The notes beneath the pieces were generated by a model that saw only the letters and a program-made list of their open reading frames with translations, did no database searches and was not told the DNA's origin. Below are positions 15,018-18,724 of a DNA stretch of 64,000 bases, in pieces. The position numbers and the translations under genes are program-made. Source of the DNA: Pseudoalteromonas sp. (lineage in GTDB: Bacteria; Pseudomonadota; Gammaproteobacteria; Enterobacterales; Alteromonadaceae); contig NZ_JAGYIU010000001.1 of NCBI RefSeq assembly GCF_018402495.1, positions 558,001 to 622,000 on the forward strand, in the 5' to 3' direction. How positions within the stretch are numbered: the first letter of the stretch is position 1; each line of letters opens with the position of its first letter.

Positions 15018-15265
15018 GTTGGATAAGCCGGAGGCGCCATCCGACGATGTTGGATAAGCCAAAGGCGTCATGCGGCGATGTTGGATAAGCCAGAGGCGTC
15101 ATCTGACGATGTTGGATAAGCCAAAGGCGCCATCCGACGGTGTTTGATAAGTCAAAGGCGCCATCCGACGGTGTTTGATAAGTCAAAGGCGTCATCCGAC
15201 GATGTTGGATAAGCCAGAGGTGCCATCCGACGATGTTGTATAAGCCAGAGGTATTGGTCGTTCAT
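15018..15265. repeat. 31-bp tandem repeat, seven full units plus a partial
   Basis: Units begin at 15018, 15049, 15080, 15111, 15142, 15173 and 15204, with a partial at 15235. The period is exactly 31 bp. Each unit has the pattern GTTGGATAAGCC...GGCG-CATCCGACGAT and is itself an imperfect palindrome (TTGGAT/ATCCGA). Units differ at a few positions, often alternating between GGCGCC and GGCGTC. The array ends about 15 bp before the RAYT start codon. Confidence 0.92.
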
Positions 15266-15281
15266 TATAAGGAGATTTTTT

Positions 15282-15779
15282 ATGAGGTATCGTCGAAACT
15301 ATCAACCAGGAGGAACGTATTTTTTTACGGTTAATTTGCAGGATCGTAAAAAGTCATTATTGGTGGAGCATATTGATTTATTGCGTGGGGCTGTGCGCTG
15401 GGTAAAAATGCATAAGCCATTTTATATTGATGCGTGGGTGGTGTTGCCTGATCATATGCATGCAGTGTTAACTTTACCAAAAGGTGATAGCGATTATTCT
15501 GGTCGTTGGCGTGAAATTAAAAAACCTTTTTCTAAAGGGTTACCTAAAAACGAATATTTATCACTCGCACGCGTTAATAAAAATGAACGAGGGATTTGGC
15601 AGCGCCGTTTTTGGGAGCATACTATTGTTGATGAACGTGATTATTGGCACCATGTAAATTATGTGCATTTTAACCCGCTTAAACATGGCTTGGTTGAGCG
15701 GGTGATTGATTGGCCTTATTCAAGCTTTCATAAAGCGGTCGCATCAGGAATATACAGCCGTAATTGGTGCGGGGAATAA
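15282..15779 (+). CDS. REP-associated tyrosine transposase (RAYT, TnpREP)
   Basis: A 165-residue Y1 HUH single-strand DNA transposase of the domesticated RAYT group, thought to move or maintain REP elements. It starts MRYRRNYQPGGTYFFTVN, has the metal-binding HUH motif in PDHMHAVLTL near residues 56-65, HVNYVHFNPLKHG near 124-136, and WPYSSFH near 144; the nucleophile should be the tyrosine in the C-terminal helix around NYVHFNP. Length matches RAYTs. A ribosome binding site (AAGGAG) lies before the ATG. REP arrays of one family flank it on both sides, the hallmark of these genes. It appears intact. Confidence 0.93.
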   Translation: MRYRRNYQPGGTYFFTVNLQDRKKSLLVEHIDLLRGAVRWVKMHKPFYIDAWVVLPDHMHAVLTLPKGDSDYSGRWREIKKPFSKGLPKNEYLSLARVNKNERGIWQRRFWEHTIVDERDYWHHVNYVHFNPLKHGLVERVIDWPYSSFHKAVASGIYSRNWCGE

Positions 15780-15782
15780 TTA

Positions 15783-16590
15783 ATACGTTTTATGTAGGCG
15801 TTTTTTGATGTTGGGAGTTTATCCAATGTTGGGAGTTTGTCCAATTTTGGGAGTTTAACCAATGTCGGGAGTTTATCCAACGTCGGGTGGCGTGGCTTCG
15901 CCACTTAACCGACCTACGTTCCCAACAATCAACGTAGGTTGGATAAGCCGGAGGCGCCATCCGACGATGTTGGATAAGCTCGGTGCGTCATGCGACGATG
16001 TTGTATATGTGGGTGCTTTTTGATTTTGGGATATTACCCAACGTCGGGTGTTTATCCAATTTAGGGAGTTTATCCAATTTAGGGAGTTTAACCAATTTAG
16101 GGAGTTTAACCAATGTCGGGTGGCGTGGCTTCGCCACTTAACCGACCTACGTTCCCAACAATTAACGTAGGTTGGATAAGTTCGGGGCGCGCCATCCGAC
16201 GATCTTTGATAAGCCAGAGGTGTCATGCGACGGTGTTGGATATGTGGGTGCTTTTTGATTTTGGGAGATTACCCAACGTCGGGTGTTTATCCAATTTAGG
16301 GAGTTTAACCAATGTCGGGAGTTTATCCAACGTCGGGTGGCGTGGCTTCGCCACTTAACCGACCTACGTTCCCACAATCAACGTAGGTTGGATAAGCCAA
16401 AGGCGTCATCCGACGATGTTGGATAAGCCAGAGGTGTCATGCGACGGTGTTATATATGTGGGTGCTTTTTGATTTTGGGAGATTACCCAACGTCGGGTGT
16501 TTAACCAATTTAGGGAGTTTAACCAATGTCGGGAGTTTATCCAACGTCGGGTGGCGTGGCTTTGCTACTTAATCGACCTACGTTCTTTTT
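15783..16590. repeat. Composite REP array downstream of RAYT, modules B-E
   Basis: Four modules are built as (18-bp unit)n, REP core, (31-bp unit)2, linker. Cores start at 15882, 16115, 16332 and 16546. The 18-bp units (pattern GTTGGGAGTTTATCCAAT) number four before B (15810-15881), four before C (16043-16114), three before D (16278-16331) and three before E (16492-16545). Each linker reads ATATGTGGGTGCTTTTTGAT and closely resembles the sequence just after the RAYT stop (ATGTAGGCGTTTTTTGATG). Module E breaks off within its core at the tRNA-repeat boundary. Open frames across these repeats are artefacts. Confidence 0.9.
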
Positions 16591-16596
16591 ATGAGT

Positions 16597-16947
16597 TGGT
16601 ACGACTGAGTGGATTCGAATCATCGACTCTTGGACCGGGTGATTAAGAGTAGGTAGTGCTTTTTCTTGAGGTGTTTTTTGAATTGGTACGACTGAGTGGA
16701 TTCGAACCAATGACTCTTGGACCGGGTGATTAAGAGTGGGTAGTGCTTTTTCTTGAGGTGTTTTTTTGAATTGGTACGACTGAGTGGATTCGAACCACCG
16801 ACCTCTGGACCGGGTGATCAAGAGTAGGTAGTGCTTTTTCTTGAGGTATTTTTTTGAATTGGTACGACTGAGTGGATTCGAACCACCGACCCTTGGAGCG
16901 GGTGATTAAGAGTAGGTAGTGCTTTTTCTTGAGGTGTTTTTTTGAAT
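16597..16947 (-). repeat. tRNA-Val-derived 88-bp tandem repeat, four units
   Basis: Units begin at 16597, 16684, 16772 and 16860, with the intact tRNA at 16948 continuing the register (steps of 87-88 bp). Read on the minus strand, each unit has AAGCACTACC (D-arm to anticodon-stem region), a replaced anticodon region of the type TACTCTTGATCACCCGGTCCA, then the whole T arm, 3' acceptor strand and CCA. The 5' acceptor strand and most of the D arm are missing, replaced by a T-rich spacer. They lie downstream of tRNA-Val copy 2 in transcription order. Confidence 0.9.
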
Positions 16948-17024
16948 TGGTACGACTGAGTGGATTCGAACCACCGACCCCTACCATGTCAAGGTAGTGC
17001 TCTAACCAACTGAGCTACAGTCGT
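16948..17024 (-). tRNA. tRNA-Val (GAC), copy 2
   Basis: A full 77-nt tRNA with encoded CCA. The acceptor stem pairs ACGACTG with CAGTCGT, the discriminator base is A, the D arm carries AGCTCAGTTGGTTAGAGC, the anticodon arm is CTACC-TTGACAT-GGTAG giving anticodon GAC, and the T loop is GGTTCGAATCC. Layout and length agree with E. coli tRNA-Val(GAC). It is the downstream of two identical copies in this cluster and is followed by the 88-bp repeats. Confidence 0.97.
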
Positions 17025-17050
17025 ACAATATGAAATTCTTAAACTTTGTT

Positions 17051-17362
17051 TGGTACGACTGAGTGTATTCGAACCACCGACCCCTGGACTGGGTGATCAA
17101 GAGTAGGTAGTGCTCTTTCCTTCAACGTACTTTAAATACAGCATTTACTCATTTTGGTACGACTGAGTGGATTCGAACTACTGACCTTTGGACCGGGTGA
17201 TCAAGAGTAGGTAGTGCTTTTTCCTTCAACGTACTTTAAATACAGCATTTACTCATTTTGGTACGACTGAGTGTATTCGAACCACCGACCCCTGGACTGG
17301 GTGCTCAAGAGTAGGTAGTGCTCTTTCCTTCAACGTACTTTAAATACAGCATTTACTCATTT
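17051..17362 (-). repeat. tRNA-Val-derived 104-bp tandem repeat, three units
   Basis: Units begin at 17051, 17155 and 17259 (exact 104-bp steps), continuing into the intact tRNA at 17363. On the minus strand each unit reads AAAGAGCACTACC, a substituted anticodon region ending CAGTCCA or CGGTCCA, then GGGGTCGGTGGTTCGAA and the acceptor 3' strand with CCA. The spacer ends in GTACGTTGAAGGAAAGAGC, which keeps the GTACG of the normal 5' end but lacks the D-arm core. They trail tRNA-Val copy 1 in transcription order. Small differences (GTGTATTCG versus GTGGATTCG) show independent drift. Confidence 0.9.
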
Positions 17363-17439
17363 TGGTACGACTGAGTGGATTCGAACCACCGACCCCTACC
17401 ATGTCAAGGTAGTGCTCTAACCAACTGAGCTACAGTCGT
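17363..17439 (-). tRNA. tRNA-Val (GAC), copy 1
   Basis: Identical in sequence to the copy at 16948-17024: 77 nt, GAC anticodon in CTACC-TTGACAT-GGTAG, complete cloverleaf and encoded CCA. It is the first intact tRNA after the predicted promoter at 17606-17634. Confidence 0.97.
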
Positions 17440-17543
17440 ACTGTAAGTTTACATACTATTTAATTCATCCATGAAGCTTCATCCTGTCGGCGTCCTGCCT
17501 CCACCTCGTTAGGCTGCGAAGCTTCGCTTCGGTCCAATCTCGC

Positions 17544-17564
17544 CCAACTGAGCTACAGTCGTAC
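17544..17564 (-). pseudogene. 5' relic of a tRNA-Val gene
   Basis: The 5' acceptor strand and D-arm start of tRNA-Val (minus strand GTACGACTGTAGCTCAGTTGG) are present, but the sequence then diverges into a hairpin-rich segment (17471-17543, including GCGAAGCTTCGC). No anticodon arm or T arm follows. It is the mirror of the repeat units, which keep only the 3' half. Being closest to the promoter, it may be the broken first gene of the original cluster. Confidence 0.8.
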
Positions 17565-17605
17565 TTCTGTATTTAAGAATTGTTAATTGCTTAACAACGG
17601 TCGCT

Positions 17606-17634
17606 AATATATAGCGTGATGAGTGGTGAATCAA
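17606..17634 (-). promoter_or_regulatory. Predicted tRNA-Val operon promoter
   Basis: On the minus strand TTGATT (17634-17629) and TATATT (17611-17606) are separated by exactly 17 bp. They are followed by a G+C-rich AGCGACC discriminator, typical of stable-RNA promoters under stringent control. It lies about 42 bp upstream of the tRNA relic. Confidence 0.7.
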
Positions 17635-17674
17635 GCATGTTTATGGTTTTTAAGTTTATTTGCCGTTTTTTTAT

Positions 17675-18724
17675 TCATATTGGACTGATTTCGCACGTTT
17701 TATAAAATTTTTGCCACCAGATAACATGCTCTTTTGCTGACGCTTTTAGCTGAGAGAGTAAGTTGTTAGAGTTTGGGTCAAGTAGGGCATTTATCGCTTC
17801 ACTGCTTACTGCTTGATTAAACCATAGTTGCATATACAGCGGCTGCAATGTTTCTAAATAACCGCTCAGCTGTGCTTGATAAGGCTGTATTTGTTTTAAA
17901 TAATATTTATTAAATATATTACTGACAATTTTAGCCTGCTGCTTGTTTTTCCCTTTAGGGCAAATATCTTCTACTACTAATGAATTTACAAACTGGGTTG
18001 CTGTATGATTTAAGCTAATTTGTTCTCGCGCAGCTTGAATAAGCTGTTGGTCAAATTTGTATCTGTTGAGCGGTTCAAGCGCTGACAAAATATCATCGCT
18101 GTTTATTGCCATACTCTTTTTCGTTTCTATTTGGTGTTTTATGGTCGTTAGCTTTTTAAGCGCCTCAACTGTGTCGCTAAACCCAGCTGGTTGGGTGCTG
18201 AGTTCTTGGCCAGTGAGCTGCCAAGTGCTGCTCAGTTCAGGTTCACTATATAAAACATTATTAAAATAATGAGCGAGCTGAGTTTGTTTCTGGGTTTTTG
18301 CCGCTGCAATTTTACTGTGAACGTTGCTTTGTTTATTTAAGGTGTTTAAACAGTTTTGCGCGCTTTGAATAAAATCTATTTGGTACTTCAATTGGCTAGC
18401 AGCGGTGGCTGTTTTGCCTAATTGATTATTATGCTCGCTTATCAGAACGTTAAGTTTACATTGGCTAATACCAGCTAGTTCAGTTATGCCAATTTTAATG
18501 GCAGGTTGCAACGCTTCAACTGGCTCTACTAAGGCTAATTGTTGCAGTGGCTTTGTGTGTGGCTTAGGCGTTTGTAAGGTATTACTTAAGCGAGACAAAT
18601 AGGTTTTATTTGCCTCACTGGGCTGCTCTGAGCAGCCCAAAAGCACCATACAACATGCCGCTAATAACCAATTAAGCGGCAGTTTGGTATAGATTGATTG
18701 TTTAAGTGAGAATAAATGGTTCAC
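17675..18724 (-). CDS. Predicted lipoprotein, DUF3080-like
   Basis: A 349-residue protein beginning at GTG, with a signal peptide and a lipobox LLGC near residue 31 (AACCMVLLGCSEQ), so it is predicted to be lipid-anchored. The rest is largely helical and rich in Gln, Leu and Ala, with YLSRLSNTLQ directly after the anchor, which recalls DUF3080 proteins. This assignment is from memory and moderate. Its start overlaps the 3' end of the MATE gene by 23 bp, so the two are probably cotranscribed. No enzymatic motif is visible. Confidence 0.65.
   Translation of the reverse strand: MNHLFSLKQSIYTKLPLNWLLAACCMVLLGCSEQPSEANKTYLSRLSNTLQTPKPHTKPLQQLALVEPVEALQPAIKIGITELAGISQCKLNVLISEHNNQLGKTATAASQLKYQIDFIQSAQNCLNTLNKQSNVHSKIAAAKTQKQTQLAHYFNNVLYSEPELSSTWQLTGQELSTQPAGFSDTVEALKKLTTIKHQIETKKSMAINSDDILSALEPLNRYKFDQQLIQAAREQISLNHTATQFVNSLVVEDICPKGKNKQQAKIVSNIFNKYYLKQIQPYQAQLSGYLETLQPLYMQLWFNQAVSSEAINALLDPNSNNLLSQLKASAKEHVIWWQKFYKTCEISPI

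Follow-up and report, generated by a model that had tools for sequence, protein, structure and literature searches.

Tandem tRNA-Val copies broken at the anticodon loop in Pseudoalteromonas, a possible variant of the RtT-type repeats of tRNA operons

Behind each of two tRNA-Val(GAC) genes of a Pseudoalteromonas sp. genome we find tandem arrays of broken tRNA-Val copies in which the anticodon loop has been replaced by a short segment that is conserved between species. Judged from sequence, these units may represent a conserved, co-transcribed, anticodon-loop-broken variant of the RtT-type repeats of tRNA operons with a role at the level of RNA, a reading to which we give about an even chance.

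The arrays lie in a contiguous stretch of 64,000 nucleotides, hereafter the window. On its minus strand the locus reads promoter, relic of a tRNA-Val 5' half, tRNA-Val(GAC), three 104-bp units, a second tRNA-Val(GAC) and four units of 88, 88, 88 and 87 bp. ARAGORN placed the two genes, whose sequences are identical, at 16948-17024 and 17363-17439, and Tandem Repeats Finder scored the 104-bp and 88-bp arrays at 635 and 686, far above chance; dissection of the sequence set their spans at 17362-17051 and 16947-16597. These three analyses confirm the order of genes and units given in an earlier note on this DNA, which had overlooked the relic (about 17563-17544, ahead of the first gene, with non-tRNA sequence down to 17440). 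The features of the locus are as follows.

17606 to 17634, minus strand: sigma-70-like promoter TTGATT-17-TATATT of the tRNA-Val operon, putative, from a consensus scan and leader comparison
17440 to 17563, minus strand: relic, a tRNA-Val 5' half TACGACTGTAGCTCAGTTGG (17563-17544) followed by non-tRNA sequence, read from the sequence
17363 to 17439, minus strand: tRNA-Val(GAC) gene 1 (ARAGORN; Rfam tRNA, 70.2 bits)
17259 to 17362, minus strand: 104-bp unit A1, a broken tRNA-Val (Tandem Repeats Finder and dissection, as for all units below)
17155 to 17258, minus strand: 104-bp unit A2
17051 to 17154, minus strand: 104-bp unit A3
16948 to 17024, minus strand: tRNA-Val(GAC) gene 2, identical to gene 1 (ARAGORN; Rfam tRNA, 70.2 bits; sequence)
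16860 to 16947, minus strand: 88-bp unit B1
16772 to 16859, minus strand: 88-bp unit B2
16806 to 16825, minus strand: example of the substituted segment, ACTCTTGATCACCCGGTCCA, in unit B2 (search of the own genome)
16684 to 16771, minus strand: 88-bp unit B3
16597 to 16683, minus strand: 87-bp unit B4

The arrangement of a tRNA-Val 5' half followed by non-tRNA sequence is also present in the genome G020, and BLAST (E<=0.001) returned no second copy of 17452-17540 in the window's own genome. By eye, the stretch that follows the relic within 17440-17563 resembles those that this genome has beside its tRNA-Lys and tRNA-Leu(CAA) relics. The array is adjoined at 15018-16585 by dense REP-like tandem repeats with periods of 31, 18, 36 and 214 bp, which surround a 165-aa ORF (15282-15779) assigned to no Pfam family; its HMH motif is, we presume, like that of a REP-associated transposase. 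A coding function of the units themselves was rejected, as lengths of 104, 88, 87, 91 and 95 bp break any reading frame and the 94-aa ORF over the B units was taken to be mechanical.

Each unit retains the last part of the D arm together with the 5' strand of the anticodon stem (AGCACTACC), and also the T-arm sequence, the 3' acceptor strand and CCA. In place of the anticodon loop and the 3' anticodon strand stands a segment that opens with ACTCT (e.g. TACTCTTGATCACCCGGTCCA), which bears out the substituted anticodon region that had been claimed. In the Val units tRNA sequence flanks this insert on both sides and the break is at the anticodon loop (two of 98 units were dropped from the junction comparison for length, and identical copies were merged). 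Within the own genome the 20-letter segment has seven copies at up to three mismatches, none with more than two, and all lie inside this array.

The remainder of the tRNA is less intact than had been described. The T arm, 3' acceptor strand and CCA said to be kept by every unit are present as sequence, but the T stem is altered in five of the seven window units, and the exact inner stem GTGG/CCAC survives in 13 of the 35 distinct shorter units of the window's clade. Such frequent mismatches mildly disfavour the suggestion that the units act as decoys for RNase P, RNase Z or CCA enzymes. Likewise, 5' acceptor pairing is indeed lacking from the 87-88-bp units, but the 104-bp units retain TACG of the 5' acceptor strand, which was paired with the 3' strand in the single unit folded (G000_646). 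No complete cloverleaf with an anticodon arm was recognised, neither ARAGORN nor the Rfam tRNA model calling any of the seven units, and we infer that they cannot mature into tRNA.

To follow the units among relatives, the Val locus was read in 55 of 60 Pseudoalteromonas genomes (G002, G016 and the stretches L130-L139 were left out; G003, G017 and G034 gave no usable match). Whether relatives would lack the units or show them in random decay had been raised as a test, and the answer is divided: by a strict end criterion, units with the conserved segment follow tRNA-Val(GAC) in 31 of the 55 genomes (98 units, 1-11 per genome with units), whereas the other 24 have no clear unit. The strict count is used because a loose core pattern, positive in 43 of 55, also fires at loci where no unit is visible. 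Contigs stop in or near arrays at five loci (L017, L020, L032, L102 and L110), and copy numbers in draft genomes are therefore lower bounds.

In a mixed set of 60 genomes the segment was found at up to three mismatches in 20, comprising 17 of 36 from the genus and 3 of 24 from outside it, while a reversed-pattern control gave three hits. The matched places were inspected in all of the 17 genus genomes except G023 and G027: in 11 genomes they lie at the tRNA-Val locus, and in G004, G012, G017 and G033 they contain no tRNA. Among the contigs of named genomes the segment pattern picked out 14 stretches, ten from Pseudoalteromonas and four that are single matches in other records. A contig of P. 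haloplanktis ATCC 14393 has five matches to this pattern. Partial tRNA-Val(GAC) copies were found in none of 18 genomes from other families of the order, within the stretch around the best tRNA-Val(GAC) match, although in a few of these (e.g. G045 and G050) that match was too weak for a tRNA-Val.

Longer units, in which the D arm is included, occur in some species, and G033, G060 and one G083 unit preserve the 5' acceptor strand in full. Because of these longer forms, the 104- and 88-bp units of the window look like 5'-shortened versions of a once full-length broken tRNA, the shortening presumably having come after the break. Four full-length G083 units pass the Rfam tRNA cut-off at 34-44 bits, and full-length broken tRNA-Val units such as those of this genome (L126) could be misannotated as tRNAs.

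Comparison between genomes separates the parts of a unit by their conservation. Mean identity of the best unit pair was 0.776 for the substituted segment (0.566 when shuffled), 0.640 for the first 20 letters of the spacer (0.587 when shuffled) and 0.866 for the 3' half, measured over 406 genome pairs (91 units, 29 genomes) that are not independent of one another. The spacer has thus drifted almost to the shuffled background while the segment is conserved between species, and even where spacer identity was under 0.6 (97 pairs) the segment kept a mean of 0.75. The acceptor allele of 41 informative units was that of the preceding tRNA gene in 30 cases, that of another gene of the locus in six and neither in five, so that units and genes seem to be homogenised together, and conservation of the 3' half is to be expected. 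The segment has no template elsewhere in the genome, and its conservation therefore points to constraint. The units are probably both homogenised with the tRNA genes and constrained in sequence; a conserved insert at the anticodon position hints that they may do something, and the conservation may also have a reason other than RNA function.

The promoter pattern TTGATT-17-TATATT is present in the leader of 55 of the 56 locus pieces with enough upstream sequence, the sole exception, G031 (L032), being a contig piece that starts within the array, and a looser version of the pattern occurs in none of 75 stretches between successive tRNA genes. The consensus scan by itself is no evidence, since it returned two promoter-like sites in the region where shuffles give 2.6. 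With the pattern present only upstream and none between genes, the units between genes are probably co-transcribed with the downstream gene from a single upstream promoter. No intrinsic terminator was listed by the scan on the minus strand of 16300-17900. A terminator role for the units was considered and rejected, because terminator-like sites do not separate loci with units from those without (4 of 37 genomes versus 0 of 12, grouped by the loose pattern).

The start of the substituted segment recurs at the broken loops of a second isotype. Partial copies were found near fMet genes in three of the 18 genomes from other families (G040, G046 and G049; the stretch from G051 held no called tRNA). 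The anticodon loop is replaced by ACTCTY... in four units of G046 and in one of G040; GGTCTT opens the second G040 unit, and the G049 copies are unlike all of these. For the six G046 and G040 units, all broken at the anticodon and from loci chosen by fMet homology independently of the motif, identity to the Val segment extends to 4.94 of the first six positions and 6.69 of the first nine, against 1.77 and 2.45 under permutation, a level that none of 2000 column permutations reached. We prefer this figure to the 5.21 of six obtained from a narrower set of five units picked for ACTCTY.

A search with CTCGTCGGGCTCAACTCT, allowing one mismatch, was positive in 19 of 247 genomes of the order, 16 of them with a CCA-like end (families f6, f11, f12 and f16); of the three that were not counted, two had no tRNA (L249, L250) and G179 had no CCA-like end. 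This filter kept 56 fMet units of the 16 genomes. In these genomes positions 6-12, which the pattern does not fix, match the Val segment at 3.04 of seven versus 1.47, a level attained in 1 of 2000 permutations. A longer form typical of f11 occurs in 10 of 247 genomes, seven from that family and three chance-like (G055, G200 and G237), where the locus has no tRNA and reads like a protein gene. The ACTCTY motif is thus patchy in the order rather than general. The broken fMet units resemble the Val units in having an ACTCTY-starting segment at the anticodon loop, in keeping the 3' half and CCA, and in standing in tandem or between tRNA genes; they differ in isotype and in their AT-rich insert (in f11 mostly ACTCTYTATAAACAATGG), which is without the CCC/GGTCCA part. 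The fMet operon of G049 (L241) contains seven partial copies, several of which consist of a terminator-like hairpin, short hairpins and a tRNA 3' end, 98-116 bp in length.

A fold common to the units was not supported. Consensus folding with RNAalifold gave 0.0 kcal/mol for each of three wide sets: 48 of the 54 distinct class II (shorter) units, the window clade's 35, and the full 31 of class I. Subsets gave consensus energies of -13.4 (G083-type class I), -9.8 (G079-type class I), -3.0 (other class I) and -23.3 (G001-clade class II). Taken by themselves, the seven window units have in common a hairpin (-8.1 kcal/mol) formed by the kept anticodon strand and the 5' strand of the T stem, but it is lost in the wider set. 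The part of the unit that precedes the T arm showed no stability beyond that of shuffled sequence (mean z +0.27 over 89 units). Pairing between the upstream tract and the CTCTY of the ACTCTY motif was weak in the fMet units (p 0.12 with other units as control, 0.025 with shuffled sequence), and we did not find it convincing.

Other tRNA operons of the window's genome also contain broken copies. Scanning 28 further stretches around tRNA matches, 15 of which were read with their spacers, revealed by eye broken partial copies in the operons of Val(TAC), Thr, fMet, Arg(ACG), Leu(CAA), Leu(TAG), Phe, Gly and Lys and also after Ser(GCT), with different isotypes broken at different places. The Val(TAC) insert was found at up to three mismatches in 17 of 60 genomes, 15 times in the tRNA-Val(TAC) cluster and twice (G015, G061) without a tRNA. 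An insert in the fMet T loop, GTTCACTCTTCACCTTCACAGC, is matched at 22 of 22 letters in five genomes and at up to three mismatches in 8 of 60 (in G033 at a place without a tRNA). After tRNA-Ser(GCT) (G000:C7:17200-19000, L158) stand two identical 185-bp units that read ...CAGGGTTCGA, insert, TATCCCTCCCTCTCCACCA, by eye a split T loop; they score 20.4 bits against the RtT model, below its cut-off of 45 bits. These are operon repeats of the same kind as the Val units, with acceptor end and CCA kept, but of another isotype and broken in the T loop, and by eye each contains a terminator-like hairpin.

Two further observations concern these operons. By eye, the tRNA 3' end together with a terminator-like stretch is duplicated after the Phe, Arg(ACG), fMet and Leu(CAA) operons (L143, L147, L155, L166). 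Several broken arms (L147, L142, L241) are perfect inverted repeats around AA (TTGGCT-AA-AGCCAA, TTAC-AA-GTAA and CGACGACC-AA-GGTCGTCG), as expected from template-switch mutations.

The closest known parallel is, as had been proposed, the RtT repeat of the E. coli tyrT operon, and the likeness proved closer than claimed. As a positive control, the RtT model (RF00391) found four matches of 133-138 bits in the E. coli K-12 tyrT-tyrV operon, one between the genes and three after the second. Compared by eye with tRNA-Tyr, an E. coli unit reads ...AAGGTTCGA, a long insert, ATCCTTCCCCCACCACCA, with T-arm sequence on both sides and the T loop interrupted, so that the tRNA-Tyr 3' half is split there. 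RtT and Val units therefore share a tandem arrangement directly behind a tRNA gene, a unit between two genes, an end formed by the tRNA's 3' acceptor strand and CCA, and an insert in a tRNA loop with tRNA sequence on either side. They differ in isotype and in the break, which for RtT is a long insert in the T loop (the loop also broken in the Ser units) and for Val about 20 nt at the anticodon loop. The tRNA-derived part had been described as far longer than in RtT, a contrast that shrinks because RtT units also carry the 5' half of the T arm. Although the architecture matches, membership of the RtT sequence family is not supported: the RF00391 covariance model gave no match in 16500-17640 up to an E-value of 10, and none above cut-off in the own genome, G046 or G135.

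Published excerpts describe RtT RNAs as products released from tRNA transcripts that have a link to the stringent response and, in Actinobacillus, were detected by northern blotting (PMC4986893, citing Bosl and Kersten 1991), and place RtT-like elements among BIMEs (PMC2965389, citing Bosl and Kersten 1991). The pseudo-tRNA tRNA-Other of Bacillus cereus (PMC3399842) is, like the Val units, tRNA-derived, non-translational and part of a longer transcript; it differs in flanking a genomic island and in having a reported deletion phenotype, and the excerpt of that paper makes no mention of a tandem array. Within the narrow scope of titles and abstract openings in the open-licence PubMed Central literature, we recognised neither such Pseudoalteromonas units nor anticodon-loop-broken tRNA repeats.

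In the reading that we favour, broken tRNA-Val(GAC) copies stand in tandem within a two-gene tRNA operon, and those between the genes would be transcribed from its single upstream promoter. As the tRNAs mature the units would then be excised, yielding either short RNAs or linkers that are discarded, as reported for RtT, and may in this way release a small RNA; Bosl and Kersten reportedly observed such release of unit RNA from the tRNA transcript in E. coli. The conserved insert would be kept because a step at the RNA level needs it, be it processing or the binding of a protein or another RNA. We hold this reading at no better than even because no fold extends across the wide sets, T stems are poor, the units show no extra stability, the upstream pairing is weak, terminators show no link to units and 24 of 55 genomes are without clear units.

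The same evidence leaves room for the units being neutral passengers, in which tandem duplication leaves defective copies that are amplified and homogenised by unequal crossing-over or gene conversion, transcribed and discarded. The absent genus-wide fold, T stems mismatched as decay would give, and the 24 genomes without units by the strict criterion make such a by-product a strong rival. It also agrees with unit counts ranging between 1 and 11 in the genomes that have any, with the homogenisation of units and preceding tRNA, and with isotypes of one genome broken at different places. Nevertheless, the segment is more conserved than the spacer although nothing elsewhere in the genome could have served as its template, and the same motif at the broken loops of two isotypes in several families would be hard to obtain from random decay; we therefore regard neutrality as a serious possibility that falls short of probable. 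A feature of the DNA seems improbable to us, namely that the units are scars or targets of site-specific recombination, or of short insertions aimed at loops, with ACTCTY the end of the inserted sequence instead of an RNA signal. The anticodon loop, T loop and 3' end of a tRNA are places used by tRNA-targeting integrases, and by eye the breaks fall in anticodon or T loops or leave the 3' end, with the motif starting at the junction or one letter after it in Val, fMet and Arg units. However, the Val and fMet inserts are flanked by tRNA sequence on both sides, an arrangement that a simple attachment-site scar would not produce; these inserts differ in length with no common far end seen, and no integrase was present among the four Pfam-checked ORFs of those listed at 12-22 kb. 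More improbable still is a role in stopping transcription, by Rho or by attenuation, whereby the array would close the operon or adjust the two tRNA genes relative to each other. Transcription of E. coli tyrT is said to terminate through Rho inside the repeats, no intrinsic terminator is listed for the minus strand of 16300-17900, and by eye intrinsic terminators can be seen inside fMet units of G049 and, in G000, inside those of Ser, Phe, Arg and Leu(CAA); against this, units also precede the second tRNA gene, and their presence does not sort the genomes by terminator-like sites.

A broader proposal, which we offer as doubtful, is that tRNA operons of marine gammaproteobacteria hold a widespread class of broken copies in which several isotypes share an ACTCTY... 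insert, decoding is lost and the acceptor end and CCA are kept. These would form a family of tRNA-derived RNAs, with RtT as an outlying member, set free as the transcript matures to target tRNA-processing enzymes or stress signalling. Tandem units may also be one cause of assembly breaks at tRNA operons, several of the loci ending at a contig edge. RtT is known chiefly from a single E. coli operon; should units with a shared insert prove common across the tRNA operons of the order, it would become one member of a class, and what tRNA transcripts release besides tRNA, and why, could be tested by comparing isotypes and species.
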